NCBI RefSeq assembly: GCF_918698095.1
Contig: NZ_CAKKLY010000025.1
Span: 1-64,000 of the forward strand
Origin: Arthrobacter sp. Bi83
GTDB lineage: Bacteria; Actinomycetota; Actinomycetes; Actinomycetales; Micrococcaceae
Direction of reading: 5' to 3'
Length of the DNA stretch: 64,000 nucleotides
The notes below the pieces were generated by a model. That model made no database searches. It was not told where the DNA came from and saw nothing but the letters and a program-made list of their open reading frames with translations. A program made the translations under genes and the position numbers. Positions 15,125-64,000 of this stretch are shown in pieces (within the stretch, counting starts at the first letter, position 1; every line of letters begins with the position of its first letter).

Positions 15125-15649
15125 GGAAGGGTGCCGCCTTTCATTGCTGCTGCCATTTTCTGAACGGGAACTCCCGCAGGGAGTTCACAAAACCTTTGCG
15201 TCCGGACACCGGAACCTGCATGGTCCGCGCTTGCTGAACCACAGACAGACCCGGGGATGGGAGCGCTGCTGACAGCTTAGCCGGAACATTGAGGATTTCC
15301 CCATCCCCGGCAAGGACGCTGGCCCTTTGGGGCCATGGCCGCGGAGTCGGGTGAGTAGGGAAACGAGATTGTTGTTTGAGGGATTTCAATTTTTTGGGAT
15401 TAGTAGTGTTAATAACTGCTGTGGAAACTGTGGATAACTCTATTTCACGGCAGGAATCCGGGGTTAAGCCCTGTTCACGGACTGTGGGCGGGGCAGGTTT
15501 TAAACAGGCTGTGGATGGGGATAACATCTTTGGCCGTTTCGGCGATCCACAGACACCTTAAGGGTTTTAAGCCCATTAACCGCGGTTGTCCCCTTAACTG
15601 TCCACAGGGTTATCCACATGCACCTGTTAATAAGGTAAGGAAGTGCGGC
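15125..15649. other. oriC: Chromosomal replication origin (oriC), dnaA-dnaN spacer
   Basis: Non-coding spacer with DnaA boxes in both orientations: TGTGGAAAC at 15420, TGTGGATAA at 15429, TGTGGATGG at 15510, CTGTCCACA at 15598 and a perfect TTATCCACA at 15610. An AT-rich tract (15361-15420) abuts the first pair. On the minus strand the order is TTATCCACA, GTTTCCACA, a GCAG spacer, then triplets TTA TTA ACA CTA CTA. This matches the basal unwinding layout of two boxes plus DnaA-trios. The location is the usual one in actinobacteria. Function is inferred from these motifs. Confidence 0.88.
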
Positions 15650-17074
15650 CTACGAGTCCCGCTGCTGCTGCTTGATCCGGTTGGTCAGCTCAGTCACCTG
15701 GTTGTAGATCACACGTCGCTCGGCCATGAGCTCACGAATCTTGCGGTCCGCGTGGATCACCGTGGTGTGGTCGCGGCCGCCGAGCTCCTGTCCGATCTTC
15801 GGCAGCGACATGTCCGTCAGTTCCCGGCAGAGGTACATGGCGATCTGCCGAGCCGTGACCAGGGTCCGGGTCCGTGACTTGCTGCAGAGCTCTTCCATGC
15901 TGAGCTTGAAGTAATCCGCGGTCTGCGTGAGGATCTGGCTGGATGTGATTTCCTGCGCACCGTCGTCGGTGATGAGATCCTTGAGAACCATCTCGGCCAG
16001 CGCCACGTCCACGGGCTGGCGGTTCAGGCTGGCGAAGGCCGTGACGCGGATGAGGGCGCCTTCGAGCTCGCGGATGTTGCTGGAAATCTTGGAAGCGATG
16101 TACTCCAGCGCGTCGTCCGGAGCGGAAAGGCCTTCGCTGAGGGCCTTCTTCCGGAGGATGGCGATGCGGGTTTCCAGTTCCGGCGGCTGGATGTCGGTCA
16201 GCAGGCCCCACTCGAAGCGGGACTTCATGCGGTCTTCGAATCCTGCCAGCAGCTTGGGCGGCTGGTCCGAGGTGATGACAACCTGCTTGTTGTTGTTGTG
16301 CAGGGAGTTGAACGTGTGGAAGAACTCCTCGAGCGTCCGGTCCTTGCCGGCGAGGAACTGGATGTCATCGATGAGGAGGACATCCACATTCCGGTAGGTG
16401 GTCTTGAAGCTGGCGCCTTCATCGTCACGGATGGAGTTGATGAAGTCGTTGGTGAATTCCTCAGAGTTCACGTAGCGCACGCGGATGCCGCTGTAGAGAC
16501 GGCGGGCGTAGTGGCCGATCGCGTGCAGCAGGTGGGTCTTGCCGAGTCCGGAGTCGCCGTAGATAAACAGCGGGTTGTAGGCCTTCGCCGGCGCTTCGGC
16601 CACGGCCACGGCTGCTGCATGGGCGAACCGGTTGGACGAGCCGATCACGAACGTGTCAAAAACATACTTTGGATTCAGCCGGCCGAATTCGTGGGAGGTG
16701 CTCGGCAGCATCGGCTGCGGCTTCAGTTCAACTGACTGGTCACTTGCGAGGGAAAGTTCGACGGCGGGTTCCGGCTCCTTGTGGAGGGGCACCAGATCTG
16801 TGTCCACGTCGATCGCGCACCGGATGTCGTCAGAGAAGACGTTGTGAAGCGCGTCGTCGAGTGCGTCCTTGACCTGGGTCTGGAGAACTTCCCGAGTGAG
16901 TTCGTTGGGCACTGCGACCAGGAGCGTGGAACCGATGAGGCCCTGCGCCTGGGCGAGGATAACGAAGCCGCGCTGTCTTGGGGATACCCGGTCGTCCTGC
17001 TCAAGAAGAGTCACCACGCGCCGCCAGGAACTTCCGACAGTATTGGCGTGGTTGGCTTCGTCTACTGTCATCAA
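15650..17074 (-). CDS. dnaA: Chromosomal replication initiator DnaA
   Basis: AAA+ initiator (474 aa) that binds DnaA boxes and opens oriC. Domain I covers about residues 15-90, followed by a short linker. Domain III has Walker A GDSGLGKT (173-180), Walker [10 protein letters not shown] (233-241) and sensor motifs. Domain IV carries the DNA-binding signature [15 protein letters not shown] near the C-terminus. The linker is short compared with Streptomyces DnaA. It is flanked by DnaA-box-containing spacers on both sides, consistent with autoregulation. Confidence 0.98.
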
Positions 17075-20859: not shown

Positions 20860-21912
20860 GTGACCAGTAGCGAAACCTCCACACAGCGGATCCCCCCGTT
20901 TGTGTCTTTGGGGTCGGCACGGGCCGTTGCTGCGCCCATCGCTACGGCCTCAAATCACCTGAATCCGTTTGCAGGCAAGGCAAGTGTCGCCAAGGTTTCA
21001 CGTGAAACACCGGGTGCATCCAATGTTCTGGACACCATGGATGACTCCAGCCCTATAGCCCGCGAGCTGGCACACGAGAACAAGCGCCGCGAAAGGCTGC
21101 TGGGCCGCAACCTTCCGAAGCCGGAGAAGACGCGCGTCTTCACAGTGTCAAACCAAAAAGGTGGTGTTGGTAAGACCACCACCACCGTCAACATCGCTGC
21201 TGCCTTGGCTGCGGCCGGACTGAATGTCCTGGTTATCGATATCGATCCCCAGGGCAATGCCTCCACGGCGTTGGGCATTGAGCATCATGCCGACGTGGAC
21301 AGCATCTACGACGTTCTGATCAACGATGTCGCGCTAGAGGATGTTGTGGCACCCTGCCCTGACATCAGCAACCTCATCTGTGCGCCGGCCACCATTCACC
21401 TTGCCGGCGCTGAGATCGAACTCGTTTCCCTCGTTGCCAGGGAACAACGGCTCCGCCGTGCGATCGACGTTTACGCGAAGGCCCGGGAGAAAAAGGGCGA
21501 ACCGCGCCTGGACTACATTTTCATCGACTGCCCGCCGAGCCTCGGGCTGCTGACGGTCAACGCGTTCTGCGCCGCCGGTGAAGTGCTGATTCCCATCCAG
21601 TGCGAGTACTACGCTCTTGAGGGGCTGAGTCAGCTTCTCAAGAACATCGAGATGATCCAGAAGCACCTAAATGCCGACCTGGTTGTCTCCACGATTCTGC
21701 TCACGATGTACGACGGCCGCACCAACTTGGCAGCGCAGGTGGCTGCCGAGGTGCGCCAGCATTTCCCTGAGCAGGTGCTGGGTGCGGTTGTCCCCCGCTC
21801 CGTGAGGATCTCCGAGGCGCCGAGCTACCAGCAGACTGTCATGACTTACGATCCGTCCTCCAGCGGTGCACTTTCCTACCTGGAAGCCGCAGCGGAAATC
21901 GCTGAGCGTTAG
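20860..21912 (+). CDS. parA: Chromosome partitioning ATPase ParA
   Basis: Deviant-Walker ATPase (350 aa) that drives origin segregation with ParB. The P-loop KGGVGKTTT lies at residues 100-108; the later motifs [10 protein letters not shown] and [16 protein letters not shown] are present. The GTG start gives an unusually long N-terminal extension of about 95 residues, rich in Ser, Ala and Pro, before the ATPase core. A parS core is embedded in this extension (coding K-V-S-R-E-T-P). parB follows 67 bases after the stop. Confidence 0.96.
20994..21009. promoter_or_regulatory. parS: parS site 1 (within parA)
   Basis: Exact 14-bp core GTTTCACGTGAAAC at 20995-21008, inside the parA coding sequence at about codons 46-50. 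Confidence 0.92.
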
Positions 21913-21979: not shown

Positions 21980-23320
21980 ATGAGCGATAAGCGACGCGGG
22001 CTCGGTCGCGGTCTTGGCGCACTCATTCCAAGTTCCGCCGCAAGCGCTTCCGGTAACGGAGCGGCTCCGTCGCGTCCAGTGGACCTGTTCTTCCCGGAAG
22101 CACGCAAGACTGCCCGCGCTGACACGCCGGTTATTTCTGACGCCGACGCTCCTGCCGTCTCTGAGTCTGTCTTCGCGGGGTCCGCTGCCCCTGAGTCCGT
22201 TGCTTCTGAGACCGCTGCTAAGGGGGTAGCTTCCAGGCGCACCCCCGGTACCACGGCCGCTGCTGAGCCTGCGGCGAAGGCTTCTCCCGTAAAGCCTGCC
22301 GGCGCACGGTCCGCCGGCAACAAAGCTGGCGTGAAGGACACCGAGGCAGCTGACAAGGAACAGGTTGCTACGTCTGGCACAAAGGCTGAGTCTCTTTCAG
22401 CCGAGTCCCGCGCGAAGACTGACGTGACTGACGTTGACTCCGGTCCGGCTGCGAACGGCGGTGGCGGATCATCGGCTTCAAACGATGTCGAGCTGGTTGA
22501 GGTCCCCGGAGTGCGGTTTGCCGAAATCCCCGTCTCTGACATCCATCCGAACCGAAAACAGCCCCGGACCGTCTTCGATGAGGACGACATGGCGGAGCTT
22601 GTTCACTCCGTACGTGAAATCGGCGTCCTCCAGCCAATTGTGGTGCGTACCTCAACCGAAGAAGGTGGAGAACCCTACGAACTGGTGATGGGCGAACGCC
22701 GGTGGCGTGCCGTTCAGGCTGCCGGACTGGAGACCATCCCGGCAATTGTCCGCGACACCACGGACGATGACCTCCTGCGCGATGCACTGCTGGAAAACCT
22801 TCACCGTAGCCAGCTGAATCCCCTGGAAGAAGCGGCGGCGTACCAGCAGCTGCTCGAGGACTTCGGAACCACCCACGAGCAGCTGGCAGATCGAATCGGC
22901 CGGTCCCGCCCGCAGGTGTCCAATACGCTTCGGCTGCTCAAGCTGCCGCCGCTGGTTCAGCGACGGGTGGCTGCGAATGTTTTGTCCGCCGGTCATGCTC
23001 GTGCGCTTCTCGCGTTGCCGGACGCCGCCGCCATGGAACGTCTGGCGCAGCGGATTGTTGCCGAGGGAATGTCGGTGCGCGCCACCGAGGAAGCCGTGAC
23101 GCTACACCGGGAACCGGCAACTGCGCCGAAAAACAACATTCCGCGGCCGGGGGCGCGCCACGAACGCCTGGACTACCTCGCGTCGTCGCTGTCGGACCGG
23201 CTGGATACCAACGTGAAGATTTCGCTGGGCGCGCGAAAGGGACGCGTCAGCATCGAGTTTGCGAGCGTTGAGGACCTCAACAGAATCATGGATGTTTTGG
23301 CTCCTGGCTCTGAAAGCTAA
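21980..23320 (+). CDS. parB: Chromosome partitioning protein ParB
   Basis: CTP-dependent clamp protein (446 aa) that loads at parS and spreads. The product from ATG 21980 begins [17 protein letters not shown], the canonical ParA-interacting N-terminus, with GGAGG upstream. An Ala/Ser/Glu-rich linker of about 130 residues (roughly 45-175) is unusually long. Then come the CTP-binding motifs GERRWR (238-243) and [10 protein letters not shown], the helix-turn-helix ([20 protein letters not shown]), and a C-terminal dimerisation domain. The frame is open to 21866 but that would overlap parA. Confidence 0.96.
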
Positions 23321-23335
23321 GTTAGAAAGAACTTC

Positions 23336-23369
23336 GGGGTCCGTTTCACGTGAAACGGGCCCCTTTTTT
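23336..23369 (+). terminator. Terminator of parAB whose stem contains parS
   Basis: Starting 16 bases after the parB stop, 14 bases (23336-23349) pair with the next 14 (23350-23363), including one G-T wobble, and TTTTTT follows at 23364-23369. The inner part of the stem is the parS core. On geometry this is a rho-independent terminator and a ParB site at once. Confidence 0.75.
23342..23357. promoter_or_regulatory. parS: parS site 2
   Basis: Exact core GTTTCACGTGAAAC at 23343-23356, forming the inner stem of the parAB terminator. Confidence 0.92.
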
Positions 23370-24353
23370 GGTCCCAAGGCGGGTTGGCGCTCCGGTTCGG
23401 TGGCTCGCGTGCATCACTTTTGACTGTCGGCTTCGTGGAGCCGCGTGAGGCAACTATCTTGCTTGTCGGCTTCCTTACGGTCCCGGGATGGACCGTATCC
23501 AAAGCTAGATAGGGTCAAACACTTGGCGTAGACACCCCTGCCGCTGTCCCGGTTGGGGTCGAACTGTCGGACAAAACCGTTCGATTTGATGCACGGCAGA
23601 TCGTCGGTGGCCAGAAGACTTTGGCTTCACGTTGTGTAAGCCGATGCATGGGAAGATTTGTCCCTGTCCGCGGGCGCGATTGAGCTTCGAATTCAGTTCG
23701 TTCGCTAGCCCTACGTCTCGGGCCAAGTTCGGCGCCCAGCGAAGCTGCTGCCCAACCCAGCCTCGCACGTTCCGGACTGGATTCCACCCGACAGGGTCAA
23801 ACGGCGTTCAAATGGCCCATGGCAGGTCTGCGGAGCGGCAAAGACCACAATCGAACACTCCTAGGGCTCCTAAGGCGCTGGCCGTCGTGCGGACTCAGAT
23901 CGCGATGAATGTGGTTGGTATGCCGTCTATAAGGGTGCGGCCGTGTGGCTCGTGGGGCTTCCTTTGGGCTTCGTGCGGACAAGGGACTGTCCGATGGGAC
24001 GTCTTTCGTCTGCTGGGGCCTAACGTGGCCCGCTCAAACGACTCCCTGGAGCAGTTGGCCGCGCGCTGCCGGCGGGCATTCAGGAGCCCCCTAGCCGTTG
24101 CACAGCCTGAATCAAGAGCAAGGGCGAAGTGTTTGCCCCGCCATGGGTTCCGGGCCCCTCAGCGGCTCGGGATGAGCTTGGTACCGCCCTGGGGACGCCG
24201 CGGTCCCCTAGGAACAGCAGCTGATGGCCAGACAATGATCGGCTGCGACGGACCCGCTGGTACTGCAGCCCGCAGCGATCATCGGCAGGTCGCAGGCCCG
24301 AAGGACGTACGGACCCGATCCGAGACGAACGGACCTTCCGCGTGCAGAAGAGG

Positions 24354-24369
24354 TGTTTCACGTGAAACG
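24354..24369. promoter_or_regulatory. parS: parS site 3
   Basis: Exact core at 24355-24368; the 16-mer is TGTTTCACGTGAAACG. Confidence 0.92.
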
Positions 24370-24452
24370 ATCTGTTGGGCTGTGCAGTTCGGGGTGCCAT
24401 TCCCTGCGCGGACCGTATTCTGCGCGTCATGGGTGGCCTGGCGTGAACGGAG

Positions 24453-24498
24453 TATCCACAATCGCGACATATCCAGAATCGCAACACATCCAGAACGG
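24453..24498. repeat. 17-bp imperfect tandem repeat
   Basis: Units TATCCACAATCGCGACA (24453) and TATCCAGAATCGCAACA (24470), then a partial third copy CATCCAGAACGG (24487). Confidence 0.6.
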
Positions 24499-24560
24499 TG
24501 AATCTAGAACTGAGTCCACCGAGATGCCCCCGTATTGATTGACCACCCCGATCACGGCCA

Positions 24561-24576
24561 TGTTTCACGTGAAACT
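24561..24576. promoter_or_regulatory. parS: parS site 4
   Basis: Exact core at 24562-24575, 207 bp from site 3. Confidence 0.92.
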
Positions 24577-24616
24577 TCCACGTACGCCTGACATGAACGT
24601 TCAGAGGAGATCCAGT

Positions 24617-24643
24617 GTTCCACCTCCTTTGTTCCACCTCCTT
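24617..24643. repeat. 14-bp tandem duplication
   Basis: GTTCCACCTCCTTT at 24617-24630 is repeated at 24631-24643 (last base missing). Confidence 0.7.
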
Positions 24644-25276
24644 GCCGGATCCGACCCCCTGCCGGCTGGCGGCCGGGGTTTCGCAGTGGCTCCGTTGACT
24701 GCGGCGCGCAGGATGAGCAGCAGGAAGCCCGCCCCATTGGAGTGATGCCGTGTCGCGAGGCAGTACGGAGCGGAACCCTCTCCCTTGGGCGCCAAGCCTT
24801 AGCTATTCGGCGTTTGATATTTGATTGGGACTCAGCGGACGAGCTTTCCGGAGAGCTATCTGTCAGCGTGGCGTCCGGCGGGACCGCTACTTTCCCCACC
24901 ATCACTGTCACCGAACGCCCGATCCTGTCAGGAATCCTAACCCTATTGGAGTCCGTACATTGGATGAACGTGGTCCGGCGAACTCCAACGGTGGCCTCGA
25001 CTATCGTTGAACGGTTTGTCGGCGACTCAGAAGGCCGATGCCGCCAGATCGTCGAGATATCTAGGGCGTCCAGACCATGGGCCCCGGGCTCACATGTAAC
25101 GACGACTGAGAGGCGAGTGGGCATCACTCCCCACAAGGAAGCAGGCGACCCTAAAAACAGGCTCGCTGGAGTGGCGGAGTACCGGCCTTCCCTCACCACC
25201 CTCCCCCTGACCACCTTCCCGGACTACCTGGTGAGTACCGCGGCGCACAACGTCTCAAGTGCAATACTGCCGACGT

Positions 25277-25292
25277 CGTTTCACGTGAAACA
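25277..25292. promoter_or_regulatory. parS: parS site 5
   Basis: Exact core at 25278-25291. Confidence 0.92.
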
Positions 25293-26014
25293 TGAAAGGG
25301 TGCGGTGGTGCCCCGTGCGTCGAATAGAGCGGTGGGCAAACGTTGGGTCGTTGTCCTCCATTCGCACAGGCTCCGCCAAGGGTCCTGCCGACATCACCAG
25401 GCTAGGCTGGTTACATGGCTCTGAGGCGCGAAGCGTCGGTTACGTATGGAAGCGGGATCTGTGGCGAGACCAGCTGTCCGGCTTTCTGACAAGCCAGGTC
25501 CCCGCGAGCCAGCGGTGGCGTCTCGACAACGCACAATACGGAGCAGGTCAGCAGCGCCCTGATTGTCTGGCCGTTTTCTCTAACTTCGGGCGAGATCTCC
25601 GTGATCGACCGTCGAGCGTATCGACCAAGACGAGCGCGGCGACGATCAGGATGTCGATAGCGACCAAAGATATCGTGGCACTGCCCCCAACGGAAGGCTC
25701 TTCAGCGTGCCTCCCTGGCCAATGACTTCCCACCGACGGCCCGCCGAGACCACAGGTTGCCCAGTCGCGGGTAGCGGTCTATGTCGTTCCCCGTCAGACT
25801 GGTCCGGTCCCACTGCATCAAACTTTGCGAAGGGTGACCCGCCTCATGTCCCCCTGGGCGAATGGGCTTCCCCTAGCGTGGCACCCACAATAAATGGGGC
25901 CCGTTGCTCAAACCCGGCCGCCGACTTGCTGACAGCTTCCCGCACGTCTGTGAATGCCCCGGGTTGACGCCGGTTGATCCCTTGAGCGCAGCCCCCATCC
26001 AGGAGGGGTGTGAC

Positions 26015-26071
26015 TGTGGATACACCGGTGGATACTGCAGTGGAAAACCCTGTGGATAACTCTGGGGATAC
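26015..26071 (+). promoter_or_regulatory. Phased DnaA-box array A (5 boxes, 12-bp period)
   Basis: Five 9-mers start exactly 12 bp apart in one orientation: TGTGGATAC (26015), GGTGGATAC (26027), AGTGGAAAA (26039), TGTGGATAA (26051, perfect DnaA box) and TGGGGATAC (26063). No coding or RNA feature explains the period. No DnaA-trio tract is adjacent. Confidence 0.75.
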
Positions 26072-26166
26072 TTGGTCTCCTTTTGTCGACCCCAACGGCT
26101 GCTCCCCTGATTCCTTTCGTTGGGTCGCACCGTTGCATGGTGACAGCGGGCTAAGAAGAAGCGCAT

Positions 26167-26182
26167 CGTTTCACGTGAATCA
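26167..26182. promoter_or_regulatory. parS: Degenerate parS site 6
   Basis: GTTTCACGTGAATC at 26168-26181 has one mismatch to the 14-bp core. It lies between the two phased DnaA-box arrays. Confidence 0.6.
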
Positions 26183-26404
26183 ATGCCCAGCCATTCACGT
26201 TGGGGTGGACACGGCGAAAGGTTGCGCTATTTTGCGTGTGATTAAGCGAATATGGTTTAGCATGAGCGCTGTACGGTGGTCACATATTGCTGTGGCAGTC
26301 GGTCGTCAGGTTCTGTTCCACGCTTCTCTGAAAGATGCCATTCGTCGACGGTGATCGACAAGACGAGACGCATTCCGAAATTTCAGGCTAATGTCCTACG
26401 CTGC

Positions 26405-26449
26405 TGTGGAAAAGCCTGTGGATTTCGATGTGGATAACCATGTGAATAA
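26405..26449 (+). promoter_or_regulatory. Phased DnaA-box array B (4 boxes, 12-bp period)
   Basis: Four 9-mers start exactly 12 bp apart: TGTGGAAAA (26405), TGTGGATTT (26417), TGTGGATAA (26429, perfect box) and TGTGAATAA (26441), in the same orientation and period as array A. Confidence 0.75.
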
Positions 26450-27323
26450 TCTCATGTCTCTTCGGCCAAAAGTTGGCGGATATATCACGTTCGCCACGTC
26501 CCCGCTGCCTCAATGCGTCTTCGGTCGATGGCTTCAGGACGGTAAATGGGCTAGCCGCCCGTGGCAATGAAGTCATGTGGAAGTTGCGTGGGGTGTCGGA
26601 TGCCCGGGGCCCAAGGCGTTCCAGAGGACCTTTTGTACCCTGCCGGCATGCCGGAGCCGGGCGGTATCTTCATCGAGTGGTTCAGTGGCCGTCCTACCGA
26701 GGGGTCTCCACACACATCCCGCAACGGCTAGGAATGGGGCCGTGCCCGAGGAACACTGGCTCCAGGTGGCAGCAGGAGGCGCCTCCAAAGCAAGACCGAG
26801 CTGTGGCCGAAGCTTGGCCTGGTGCGATGACGCATTCTGCTGCGAACGTGCCTACAGCGACTGCGGCCTGTGCAGTTCCATGAGCGTACGTGGCGCGGCC
26901 TCGTCCGTGAGTTTCGCGAATGGCCGAGGGGTCGGTGCCACGCACATGGTGGGTCATTGCAGTATGCCGCGGCTGCACAGTCGAGGCCGGGATGCCGCAC
27001 TGCCGTCGCATTGTCTCCCGCGTCGTAGTACGTCGCCAGGCAGGGTCCTGAGGTTCTTCCGAGCTGCGCCTGCTCACTCAGGTGGCGACGTCGTGGGGCA
27101 GCGACGGCAGACGAGTCGCGGGAGCCGGTGACGGTGAACGAGTCTTGGGGGCGGCGACGGTAAGCGCCAGGGTCTGCTGAGCCATGTCGTGGCTGATGGG
27201 GCGGGCAGCGCGAGTGCATTCCACCTGGGCTTGTGTGTATAGATTGGTGCTGGGTGTAGATCTGCAGGCTGTTGGACTGCCGGATCCTTTCCCCGGCCGT
27301 CCGCCTGACCCCAAGCCAGGCGT

Positions 27324-27352
27324 CTGGTAGCTAAGCGCACTGGTAGCTAAGC
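27324..27352. repeat. 13-bp direct repeat
   Basis: CTGGTAGCTAAGC at 27324-27336 recurs at 27340-27352. Confidence 0.6.
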
Positions 27353-27476
27353 CCGTCAGAAGTACTCATGGGGATGTCCGCACTCGCCACAATCTTGGGC
27401 GACGCGAACGGACACTCACACGTGGTTTCCGTTGGATCTGTGGTGCACCGTCGACGCTTCGGTGCCCGCGCGTAGA

Positions 27477-27492
27477 GGTTTCACGTGAAACA
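27477..27492. promoter_or_regulatory. parS: parS site 7
   Basis: Exact core at 27478-27491. Confidence 0.92.
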
Positions 27493-27655
27493 CCCCGTGT
27501 ACGACGTCGCCGACGTTGCTTCGTTGGGCCGGCCCGAATAGACAATCCTGAATTAAGTCGAATCGACGGCCGCTGCCTTGTCCACTCCTCTGGGGCCGCG
27601 GAGCAGAATGATATGTCAGCGTGGCAGGCTACTTCGTGCGTTAGTGCGTCCATCC

Positions 27656-27688
27656 CTTGTCCGAGTTGCAGTCTTGTCCGAGTTGCAG
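27656..27688. repeat. 17-bp tandem duplication
   Basis: CTTGTCCGAGTTGCAG at 27656-27671 is repeated at 27673-27688, one base apart. Confidence 0.7.
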
Positions 27689-27835
27689 GCTCCGCGCGGG
27701 ACGTCCTTGGCTGTGGGCGAAATCATTGATCTCACGCGGGAATAGCAGGTTTGACGGGACATGCCCACTAACAACAACCCAGCGACCCGATCACTCGCTT
27801 GCCTAAGGATCGCCGGGCGGCGAAACAGTTGACGC

Positions 27836-27851
27836 TGTTTCACGTGAAACA
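27836..27851. promoter_or_regulatory. parS: parS site 8
   Basis: Fully palindromic 16-mer TGTTTCACGTGAAACA. Confidence 0.95.
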
Positions 27852-28077
27852 TCGTCCATCGTTCGACCTCATCACCACCCCGAGGTGGGGCAGGGGCATC
27901 CGACAGCAGGACGGCGGCGCAATCGGACAGGCATCATCGCGCCTGTTGGAACGAGGGGTGGCGGCCGCCTTGAGGAGCCGGGCCCTGTCCAGACACCCTG
28001 TATATAGGCACACAGATCGCCAGGGCGGTTGACTGCGCTGATCCTGGCACGTTGGGGAGGGACGTTCGGTTGCGAGG

Positions 28078-28093
28078 TGTTTCACGTGAAACA
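28078..28093. promoter_or_regulatory. parS: parS site 9
   Basis: Fully palindromic 16-mer TGTTTCACGTGAAACA, 242 bp from site 8. Confidence 0.95.
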
Positions 28094-28575
28094 ACGTCCA
28101 TGGCGGGCCCCCGCGCGGATCGCCAGTACGGCGGGGAAACCAAAGTAGCGCACAGTCGGGTTTCGGCGCTTCGTATCCGTGGATGCCTCGGAACTCACGG
28201 TGTTTGGCCGGCGTTAGCACTAGCCCACTTCATCCTTAGTGCCGCGCAGGCTTGTTTGGACGCCCCAAGCTTGCCGCAGCAGGACAAAGCCAATACTCAT
28301 GTCCGCGCCCGACTGCCCCCGTCTTCTCAGTCCTCATCAGGTTCTGCAGGCTTCTGCGTGTGACAACCGGCCCTCAGCAAGCTGTAGGACTCAGCAAGGT
28401 GCAGGTGTTTCCGGGCCTTCTTCGGCCCGGGAAGCCGGAAAAGGATCGCGGGAGTCGCGTTCTGCAGTGGCCGGAAATCTAGGGTTCGTCGAGCCGAGAG
28501 GTCAATGGGCAAGTTTTCGCTTCTGTTCCCTCCTCTCCTATCCGGCGAGTGTCTGCGGCGCGCGGTCGGTTTTCA

Positions 28576-28645
28576 GCCAGCGTCCCGTCTTTCCGCCAGC
28601 GTCCCGTCTTTCCGCCAGCGTCCCGTCTTTCCGCCAGCGTCCCGT
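28576..28645. repeat. 19-bp tandem repeat, about 3.7 copies
   Basis: The unit GCCAGCGTCCCGTCTTTCC starts at 28576, 28595, 28614 and 28633, the last copy partial. The copies are identical, so the expansion looks recent. It is not in a credible gene. Confidence 0.9.
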
Positions 28646-29242
28646 TCGCTCTCCTGTGGGCGCTGGTTCTCCCCACGTCTCCTGGCCTGAACACCCAGGC
28701 GGTTCTTGTTTGGCCGACTGTCTCAAGGGACGATGGCGATATCTTCCCAAAGCACCGTTGGATCCCTCGGCGGTCTCGATCGCCCGGTCGCATGCGGGCG
28801 TTGACTGCTTGCAGTGGCAGTTCGGCGACAAAAATGGGGCCTTCAGGGGGAAGGTAGAGAGGGGGTCCATAGTGCATCCGCCAGTTCACTCGCGTCAGTG
28901 GGTTGTTTACTCATGTGTTCTTAAGTTTCCGAACGATGCTTGTTGCTCGTCCACCGACATCGGATCGTCTTCTTGCACAGTGGTCCAGCTAGGCGACAGA
29001 GGTGCAGTTCGCCGGCAAAGGAAGGCTCATAGGCACAAGAGTGCATGGTCAATGAAGAAAAAGACGATCCGGGATCCTGAGCGAAGGCACGCTGTACGAC
29101 GGTTGTGGGTTGTAGGGCTTGCCTGCGAGCAGACGGGTTTGTCGGGCAGCCGGCGCCTGGGGACGGACGCGGGTGCGTCGTCAGGCCGCTGAGTCGCCAA
29201 TCCGCTGTGTCGCGAGCATGGAGGTCGGAAAATGCAATGACG

Positions 29243-29258
29243 TGTTTCACGTGAAACA
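29243..29258. promoter_or_regulatory. parS: parS site 10
   Basis: Fully palindromic 16-mer TGTTTCACGTGAAACA. Confidence 0.95.
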
Positions 29259-29570
29259 CGACATCAGGCTGTCCGGCAACTCAATGCGCGTGAATCCGGG
29301 CAGGCACAGCAGTATTCGGGCCTTGGTACCCCATTGCCCAGCAGACCTTGGTAGTCGGCAAATTCACTGCCAAGAGGAATAGCCGTATGTAGCCTGCTGG
29401 AACCGCGCGGCTTACCCGGTCCCCACAATCAAAGGAAGGCAGTCGATTGCCCCGTGATCCGATCCCCTGTTTCCCAAACGATATTCCGGCCAATGGCTGT
29501 CGAGAGCAGTTCCAAGTACTTCGGGGTGTTGGTGCGTGTTGTTGCAGATAACATCCCGTTTGGACCAAAG

Positions 29571-29586
29571 GGTTTCACGTGAAACA
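29571..29586. promoter_or_regulatory. parS: parS site 11
   Basis: Exact core at 29572-29585, the parS farthest from parB in this window. Confidence 0.92.
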
Positions 29587-30203
29587 TGGGGCGTCAGGCA
29601 CAGCGTGGTGCTACCTGAATAGACACCCGGGCCCTACCGCCGCGTCGCAAGCCACGTACCGGTCACCTACGACGCAGGGGTCCTACGACGGCGCGCGCGT
29701 CCATCGTCCGAGGCAGTGAGCAGACGGGGAAGGGTGCAGCCTTCTGTCGGAGTACTCGATCCGCTCTGCGCTGACGAGTGTCCTAGAGCCGGCGCACATC
29801 CTGAAGCAAGTGTCCGGCCAGCATGGCAGGCAGGAGACCAAAGGGGCCAGCCTGTGATCGACTCCCAGCGGGATTGATTCCCACGGGTTACTGAGCCGAA
29901 CGGCGTTGGTCCGCCGGTGCAGCAGTGCTGCCTCGTCCCACAGAAGATTTCAGGGAACAGTGCCCATGTTTGATACGGATGTCGGTTGTTATGCACACTC
30001 GAGGGTATGCGGACAGTCGCTGGTGCGGACCACTGCACCTCTCTCCGTGCCCGACTTTGCCCCAATACGCTCGCCGACCGCCGGGATCGGGACGCCGGCA
30101 CCAACAAACGGCTAAGGATTACCTGCAACTGTGGCAAGCAGTCCACACCTGGACAAAGAGCGTGAGGCAGCGATCGACAAGGGCCATTCAGGCTGCAAGC
30201 AAA

Positions 30204-30243
30204 ACAAAAGTGGCCACCGCTCCCTTAGGAGTGGTGGCCACCG
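30204..30243 (-). terminator. Terminator of the trxB-trxA operon
   Basis: On the minus strand a long GC-rich stem (GGTGGCCACCACTCC pairing, with small mismatches, to GAGCGGTGGCCAC) with a 5-base loop is followed by TTTTGTTTT. Confidence 0.85.
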
Positions 30244-30276
30244 GTTTGCCGTCAGGCGGCAGGCGTCGTGCTCTTG

Positions 30277-30603
30277 TTAGGAAAGAACGTCCGCGAATTC
30301 CTTCTCGAAGAACTGCTTCGGCTTGGCGCCGATGACGGTGCTCTTCACTTCGCCGTCCTGGAACAGGTAGACGGCAGGAATTGAGGTGATTCCGTATTGG
30401 GCTGCGATGTCGGGGTTATCGTCCACGTTTACCTTGACGACGTTCACCTTTTCCCCGTACTCCACCGAGATTTCGTCGAGGATGGGGCCGAGCTTACGGC
30501 AAGGACCGCACCATTCAGCCCAGAAGTCCACGATTACCGGTTTGTCAGCGGCGAGTACGTCCGTGCTGAAGCTTGCGTCTGTTACATCTTTTGCGTTGCT
30601 CAT
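30277..30603 (-). CDS. trxA: Thioredoxin
   Basis: Cytoplasmic thiol-disulfide oxidoreductase (108 aa). The active site WCGPC has cysteines at 32 and 35, preceded by VDFWAE; the cis-proline region (TSIPAVYLF) is present. The length is typical. It lies 38 bases downstream of trxB in the same operon and is followed by a strong terminator, so both share the SigR-type promoter in front of trxB. Confidence 0.97.
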   Translation of the reverse strand: MSNAKDVTDASFSTDVLAADKPVIVDFWAEWCGPCRKLGPILDEISVEYGEKVNVVKVNVDDNPDIAAQYGITSIPAVYLFQDGEVKSTVIGAKPKQFFEKEFADVLS

Positions 30604-63347: not shown

Positions 63348-64000
63348 AGATAGAGCTTAGGCCAGTTAGTCGTTATCCACAGCATATGCAGCGGTACGCA
63401 TGCGGCGGTCCTGTCGGGCCGAACGTGGCCGAACGTCGCAGCCCGGCGTGGAGCGGTTCGGGGAGCGTTCGCGATAATGATCACATTCCGCCCATCCCCG
63501 GCGGTCAACACGCGGAAATTACCGGCGAGTATCCCCAGTCGCGGCGTTCCGGCTGTGGATGAAGGTTCAAGAAAAGAATTTTGAGTCCACAGGCCTCGAC
63601 GGGCGTTTCCGCAGGTCAGGCTGCATATAGGCGTGAAAGAAATTTGATATCCACACCTTCGCCCACAGACTGTGCACAAGCAGCGGCCCATTGTGCACAG
63701 GTTATCCACAGACGTGCAAAACTCCGGGCTTTGTGCGTTGCCCGGCGGGCGCTAACGTAGCGGAGACACCGAATCGGGACATGCGCTCCACATCAGCCAA
63801 CCGGACCGGGGCCCCCATTTCAGGGTTTCGGATAATCCGCGGTGCCCTGTGGAAAACCTGTGGATGAGGCGTCGGCCGAGGCCACGGCTTCCGGCTTAAA
63901 TTGTCAGGGCTGGCTGGTACAACTTTTCATTAGCCGGCGCTGCAGCTTTCGCGGAAACGCGCGTTCAACGGCACACGGCAGACTTGCCGCAGGCCTCCAT
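63348..64000. promoter_or_regulatory. DnaA-box-rich spacer at the right edge
   Basis: No gene is seen to the window end. Perfect DnaA boxes TTATCCACA occur at 63373 and 63702. Near-matches are TGTGGATGA (63554, 63859), ATATCCACA (63647), TTGTGCACA (63691) and TGTGGAAAA (63848). Next in this gene order in relatives is usually dnaB, so this may be its upstream region; that gene is outside the window. Confidence 0.6.

Follow-up and report, generated by a model that had tools for sequence, protein, structure and literature searches.

The centromere region next to the replication origin carries two arrays of DnaA boxes that, as judged by sequence, are each unidirectional and phased at 12 bp, consist of a perfect or near-perfect anchor box accompanied by weaker boxes, and lie near the middle of the field of parS sites. 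With confidence that is evenly balanced, we favor the reading that the arrays are part of a composite DnaA-ParB control element in the centromere, which may couple initiation with origin segregation.

The window (the whole stretch of 64,000 nucleotides that was analyzed; contig G000:C25) lies within a 4.9-Mb genome whose nearest named relatives are Arthrobacter and Pseudarthrobacter. The genes dnaA (15650-17074, minus strand), yidC, a KH/R3H-domain gene, rsmG, parA, and parB precede the spacer in that order, and on its far side stand trxA (30277-30603, minus strand, with a Pfam Thioredoxin match) and then a pyridine-nucleotide oxidoreductase gene, taken as trxB. parB, the product of which matches Pfam ParB_N and HTH_ParB, ends at 23320, and the parB-trxA spacer that follows (23321-30276, unstranded) is an apparently noncoding centromere region of ~7 kb with 10 parS sites. 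These 10 are among 11 parS sites listed in the window at up to three mismatches to the 16-mer, the 11th being at 20994, within the predicted parA open reading frame (ORF). A coding explanation of the spacer was rejected, since the nine spacer ORFs tested, a subset of those present, gave no Pfam family match and codon-position bias in the spacer was mostly weak; the preliminary description of this DNA had likewise found no gene that would explain the arrays. A structured RNA was also rejected, as only two tRNAs in the window attained the Rfam gathering score.

Array 1 (26015-26071, minus strand) has five boxes at a 12-bp step, reading TTATCCACA on the minus strand, with one mismatch to TGTGGATAA at 26015, two each at 26027, 26039, and 26063, and none at the anchor, 26051. 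Array 2 (26405-26449, minus strand) has four boxes at the same step, with one mismatch at 26405, two at 26417, none at the anchor, 26429, and one at 26441. All nine boxes share one orientation (TGTGGATAA on the plus strand), there is one perfect box per array, and the exact 12-bp steps number seven. The preliminary description had recorded the nine 9-mers, their common orientation, and the single perfect box of each array correctly. It had also held that the repeated 12-bp step exceeds chance, and this was borne out by 1,000 dinucleotide shuffles of the window spacer, which never gave a 12-bp-step run longer than 2, whereas the longest run in the real spacer is 5. Two copies of TGTGGATAA separated by 3 bp (TGTGGATAA-N3-TGTGGATAA, at most three mismatches) occur eight times in the 64-kb window, compared with a mean of 0.01 in shuffles; six of these matches are in the arrays, one is in oriC, and one is ahead of dnaA. 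Between the arrays is a parS site (26167-26182, unstranded; core GTTTCACGTGAATC), the start of which lies 117 bp from that of the array-1 anchor, and, as had been described, it is the only one of the 11 window sites with a mismatch, a single one, in the 14-bp core. The distance to oriC, given earlier as ~11 kb, is 10.6 kb for its perfect box at 15429 and 10.4 kb for that at 15610. Some 45 to 75 bp past the parS site is a weakly conserved AT-rich patch (26225-26265, unstranded), in which the GC content of the bins falls to 0.45 to 0.48, compared with ~0.6 around it (49 genomes), and at which a degenerate motif gave a log-likelihood of 193 versus 84 to 101 in three shuffled sets. As to an IHF-type bending site among the boxes, judged from base composition and motif enrichment, this weak AT-rich patch was all that was seen.

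To describe conservation, we used a genus-clade sample of 65 loci (the window plus 64 others), from which nine G loci identical over the element were removed to leave 56 distinct loci. Under one array rule, at least one array was present in all 56, and under a stricter paired rule, in which a single perfect box may count as a cluster, paired box clusters 288 to 370 bp apart were found in 54. One of the two loci failing the paired rule (L043) has a weaker array 1, although both of its arrays were seen by the first rule, and in the other (L035, Arthrobacter sp. MA-N2), the arrays are ~1.8 kb apart. Two ORFs lie in the stretch between the arrays of the latter (L035:13539-14989), one of them a transposase gene with an rve integrase core. 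Two loci with a spacer without a closing trxA (L031 and L055) were excluded from the 9-mer, orientation, and spacing counts, which thus cover 54 closed spacers. The only 9-mers common to all 54 were parS and the DnaA box. Box orientation across the spacers was 296 to 12, and same-strand box pairs with the 12-bp spacing numbered 110, against 3 with 11 bp and 14 with 13 bp. The consensus in relatives was gGTGGATAt-N3-TGTGGATAA-N3-TGTGGAta for array 1 and TGTGGATAA-N3-TGTGnAtAA for array 2. With the best box taken as the anchor, a neighboring box with at most two mismatches was present in array 1 at -12 in 51/54 and at +12 in 47/54 and in array 2 at +12 in 45/54 and at -12 in 21/54. Array 1 ended at 0.44 of the spacer (standard deviation [SD], 0.04; n = 52), and spacers in the genus held 6 to 12 parS sites. 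In an alignment around the element, the boxes and parS were conserved and little else was, and the flanks could not be aligned. Alignment of the spacer across relatives was the check that the preliminary description itself had proposed, and its expectation held: the 12-bp step was kept while the surrounding sequence drifted. In wider scans, a two-box form of the pattern was found in 142/150 genus genomes and in 40/120 genomes drawn from the family, many of the latter's matches being at oriC, and a pattern of three phased boxes (one mismatch) was found in 5/149 genomes drawn from the order, comprising three of the four sampled from the genus and two from other families.

Comparison of these loci showed that the spacing between the array and parS is tight. 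In 49 of 54 genomes, the interval enclosed by the paired clusters held exactly one parS site (at most two mismatches), versus ~0.55 expected from parS density, and in 49 of 54, parS was 104 to 139 bp downstream of the array-1 anchor. The offset of this inner site had an SD of 11 bp (n = 49), whereas the SDs for the closest parS sites outside the arrays were 463 and 296 bp (n = 54). In the main form, the last box of one array is 92 to 127 bp from parS, and the first box of the other array is 195 to 263 bp from it. Among 24 disjoint sister pairs, the array 1-parS distance differed by 0 to 5 bp in 19 and by 13, 15, 21, 21, and 23 bp in the others, and the parS-array 2 distance differed by 0 to 4 bp in 13 and by 9, 9, 11, 11, 12, 16, 21, 22, 23, 34, and 37 bp in the others; control intervals to the next parS site in the same pairs differed by 5 to 294 and 0 to 715 bp. 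An exact gapped pattern (anchor-N93..123-parS) was found in 155/206 genus genomes. In the 150 matches listed, among which G130, G437, G441, and G116 give two rows each (two perfect boxes, one array), the array 1-parS distance was 104 to 107 bp in 18, 108 or 109 bp in none, 110 to 114 bp in 12, 115 to 118 bp in 87, 119 to 124 bp in 5, and 125 to 131 bp in 28. On the other side, where distances of 223 to 253 bp were searched, no parS-array 2 distance of 243 to 248 bp was found among the 94 matching genomes of 204.

The exceptions to the inner-parS layout partly support the same distance rule, as read from their sequences. An inner parS is missing from five genomes, which group as a single clade (Paenarthrobacter-clade loci); each of the five carries a parS site 96 to 120 bp upstream of array 1, toward parB, and of these sites, four are perfect and one has two mismatches. 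An exact scan for this upstream arrangement matched 16/204 genomes, of which four (G406, G440, G121, and G452) also have the downstream arrangement among the matches listed and twelve match upstream only. Either exact pattern is present in 167/206 genus genomes and neither is in 39; the window's own genome matches neither because of its parS mismatch. In genus g19, parS is 97 to 108 bp upstream of the array-2 anchor in all four loci, and of three Sinomonas-type loci, a single one has parS near an array, 115 bp past the anchor of array 2, while the other two lack a nearby site. From the five upstream-parS genomes, g19, and the one Sinomonas-type locus, we concluded that a parS site ~100 to 120 bp from an array recurs in varied arrangements but is not universal.

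Larger changes in spacing tend toward steps of 11 to 12 bp, and helical phasing of the array-parS distance is only suggestive. Loci of identical array layout still fall into distance classes ~11 bp apart, with a best period of 11.5 to 11.75. Under a jitter null, the parS-array 2 distances gave 0/2,000 with the full 49 loci and again when these were thinned to 30, then 0.047 with 13 and 0.575 with 4, and the array 1-parS distances gave 0 for the 49, 0 for the 30 thinned loci, 0.057 for 13, and 0.053 for 4. Both the 12-bp lattice and the kinship of the genomes confound the near-11-bp stepping, the significance of which weakens with thinning. Pure helical phasing as read from peaks at 104, 116, and 128 bp was rejected, as the 12-bp array lattice yields similar steps.

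On a 112-row tree built from protein pieces of YidC, ParA, and ParB, which is of a quick kind and came with a long-branch warning, the array label required 2 changes, compared with a shuffled mean of 36.9. All array rows fell inside one 63-row clade (support, 95) made up of the window's genus (56 rows), Sinomonas cellulolyticus with two g7 genomes, and g19. L150, which fails the rule of at most one mismatch (array n3 [2,0,2]), was placed in the array group by hand; L206 was scored "none" even though separated boxes are present; and sampling outside the genus was partly pattern chosen, with two of four g7 genomes taken, both matching, and all four g19 genomes taken. On this distribution, the array element is one retained over a long time in the clade. 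No DnaA box at zero or one mismatch was found in the 4.8-kb spacers of A. gandavensis and A. koreensis, which bear 7 or 8 parS sites, and since these species keep the parS field without the arrays, the field is separable from them.

In the coupling reading, each array would seed a head-to-tail DnaA oligomer, probably specific for ATP-DnaA, and both oligomers, together with ParB on the nearby parS, would build one complex. Because this complex would be assembled only when ATP-DnaA is abundant, and the element would be copied soon after firing, it could tell ParABS when initiation has happened; in addition or instead, the partition complex might act on DnaA through the element. We judged such coupling to be the most likely reading, and pure initiation control the next, because the near-constant parS distance suggests a joint complex and because there are precedents for DnaA-ParB contact and in Caulobacter. 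ParB-DnaA contacts are reported, in review passages, for Deinococcus radiodurans and Vibrio cholerae, and in Caulobacter, the DnaA found at parS is reported to influence segregation even when there is too little of it to start replication (a passage in PMC6399470). At the Thermotoga origin, according to part of one account, the strongest paired binding was to two same-direction boxes 2 bp apart (the gap in the arrays here is 3 bp), and head-to-tail oligomers did not always require one direction; elsewhere it is noted that domain I dimers of actinomycete DnaA may link distant clusters. A more specific version, which we regard as unlikely, is a DnaA-gated parS, in which a pair of phased filaments of ATP-DnaA would combine with ParB bound at one parS in a single, helically aligned switch. 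Assembled only at high ATP-DnaA, this switch would license origin segregation, or report the state of ParB/ParA back to DnaA, once in each initiation. As a footprint, it would leave array-array and array-parS distances that are nearly fixed, larger changes that often come close to whole turns, and a parS moved to the opposite flank at a similar distance. Against coupling stand the loci with parS outside the array pair, the two Sinomonas-type loci without a close parS, the L035 arrays split by the rve transposase gene, Micrococcaceae such as A. gandavensis and A. koreensis that have long parS fields without arrays, and the 39 genus genomes that match neither exact pattern.

An element for initiation control only, through datA-like inactivation or DnaA titration, is possible but somewhat doubtful; its place in the centromere would then do no more than give early duplication and free noncoding DNA. 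Such a role would fit with B. subtilis and S. coelicolor, in which DnaA-box clusters near oriC are said in part of one review to repress untimely initiation, although a passage of a second review describes the B. subtilis effect as strong only with all six removed and doubts a significant role. It would also fit with datA, which is described in a partial account as requiring several DnaA boxes and one IHF site, the arrays here flanking an AT-rich patch, and with the two of three Sinomonas-type loci that keep arrays without a close parS. However, strict phasing, a single orientation, a near-constant array separation, and a near-constant parS distance are not needed for titration, which is for that reason less supported. 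Hence, of the earlier suggestion of a datA/DARS-like titration locus built into the centromere, the conserved DnaA-box set within the centromere stands, whereas plain titration or a datA/DARS role has lost ground. Moreover, the genus already has irregular, mixed-orientation DnaA-box clusters, which lie beside a rhomboid gene ~17 to 20 kb from dnaA on the dnaN side in 14/15 fragments. They comprise 8 to 12 boxes, or up to 15 with a satellite cluster; the rhomboid gene is present in 15/15 dnaN-side fragments and crgA in 8, and the sole fragment without a cluster (L220) has its rhomboid gene near the fragment end. One such cluster lies by rhomboid and crgA at G001:C1:16917-18066 (L207), another between rhomboid and crgA in genus g4, and another beside rhomboid in g28. 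The window's genome has eight boxes at 272-726 of contig C52 (G000:C52, L221), with crgA nearby, and this contig may adjoin the window contig, because the left end of the window lies in a rhomboid gene. The rhomboid-side clusters resemble the Streptomyces/Bacillus type, the S. coelicolor example of which is named H69. From their sequences, they fit titration better than the parB-trxA element does, and they provide an internal contrast in which titration-type clusters look unlike that element.

The remaining explanations fare less well. That the arrays serve as roadblocks, limiting ParB sliding from the nearby parS or insulating SMC loading without any initiation signaling, would suit the main form, in which one parS lies between two arrays, but a roadblock would need no phasing, and the five Paenarthrobacter-clade loci and one of the Sinomonas type have their parS beyond the array pair, as do the twelve of 204 genomes matching the upstream arrangement only; we consider this improbable. 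A transcription-regulatory site (a promoter or noncoding RNA) has in its favor that DnaA, according to an abstract, is also a transcription factor. Yet from the arrays it is on average 2.3 kb to the parB side of the spacer and 2.7 kb to its trxA side (n = 52), the spacer has no Rfam match at the gathering score, and all spacers have no 9-mer in common other than those of parS and the DnaA box; the idea of a decaying copy of the oriC boxes is at odds with their retention in 56/56 loci, and we hold both to be very improbable. An auxiliary or second replication origin, which we find scarcely credible, would accord with arrays that point to an AT-richer middle, boxes beside an AT-rich stretch being the general origin plan, and with a GC skew that is higher to the right of the arrays than to the left in 29/43 genomes. 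The canonical oriC (15360-15633, unstranded, in the dnaA-dnaN gap, outside the element), with an AT-rich stretch, TAG-type triplets, and boxes at 15420, 15429, 15516, 15598, and 15610, is nevertheless intact and strongly conserved (44 aligned loci). A 12-bp box pair is present there too, with both boxes at zero or one mismatch in 35/44 loci (the window's pair needs two mismatches), and the 12-bp step is therefore used at the organism's own DnaA sites. No AT-rich unwinding element adjoins the boxes of the arrays: the mean minimum 50-bp GC content between them is 0.44 (54 genomes), near the 0.47 of random spacer pieces and far from the 0.29 of oriC (44 genomes). Alignment gave no conserved tract of the DnaA-trio kind adjoining either array, and two consecutive [TA]A[GA] triplets, taken as a simple measure of such a tract, occurred in 43/44 oriC regions but in only 5/54 genomes on the array 2 side and 1/54 on the array 1 side. 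GC skew pooled over the 43 genomes in which both arrays were detected is positive on either side of them (+0.029 on the left, +0.047 on the right), the window's own sequence has no cumulative-skew minimum there, and in one genome, a noisy skew minimum lay at 11 to 21 kb on the dnaN side rather than at the arrays. These results sustain two points of the preliminary description, that no DnaA-trio tract follows the arrays and that they do not look like a second unwinding site.

A literature search, with most subscription papers lying outside it, returned no description of the element. As a genus-wide module, paired, phased, unidirectional arrays at a near-fixed parS distance appear to be new, and we know of no pair of 12-bp-phased unidirectional arrays at a fixed separation in Caulobacter. 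What is already known is that centromeres can contain initiator sites and that DnaA-box clusters occur near oriC. Binding of DnaA to the Caulobacter crescentus parS centromere (Mera et al., 2014, as reviewed in PMC6399470) means that the earlier statement that no equivalent had been described was wrong in concept, although the geometry does appear new. The element has conserved DnaA boxes near parS, the feature of a DnaA-bound centromere, and resembles the Caulobacter case in that these boxes lie at parS close to the origin, where DnaA is reported there to act on both segregation and initiation; it differs in belonging to an unrelated phylum and in having 6 to 12 parS sites per spacer, whereas Caulobacter appears, from the passages concerned, to use one main parS (PMC6399470). 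In rctA/parS2 of V. cholerae chromosome II, an initiator likewise binds at a locus holding parS, but that initiator is RctB and the locus is on a second chromosome (PMC6399470, in part). Like the B. subtilis DnaA-box clusters (DBCs) and the S. coelicolor cluster, as far as these are described in the sources drawn on, the parB-trxA element is a DnaA-box group near oriC and outside the unwinding region; unlike them, it is strictly phased, unidirectional, and tied to parS. With E. coli datA and DARS1/2, again from partial accounts, it shares DnaA boxes in a noncoding control locus and spacers that drift while binding sites are kept, and it differs in lying in the centromere. For the tie between replication start and origin segregation in bacteria there are few models only, and the geometry suggests a built-in link between replication start and the separation of the copies. 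One module of ~450 bp extends across a genus of soil bacteria and is absent from some relatives with the same kind of parS field. As putative DnaA oligomerization sites and parS stand in near-fixed register, coupling is testable without touching oriC or the par genes.

Further DnaA-box clusters and repeats were seen in passing. Six boxes with zero or one mismatch lie within 490 bp at 63373-63859 of the window, ~46 kb from dnaA, and in G001, seven boxes are clustered on that side of dnaA, 55 kb from it. In genus g23 (L194 to L196), dense DnaA-box clusters lie ~52 to 109 kb upstream of dnaA. In the parB-trxA spacers of relatives, 9-mers around GTGGCCAC were present in 20 to 27 of 54, compared with 4 to 6 for reversed controls, an excess that may be GC-rich background only. 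Inside the centromere spacer of the window, at 28571-28645, are four head-to-tail 19-bp repeats of the TTTCCGCCAGCGTCCCGTC type.
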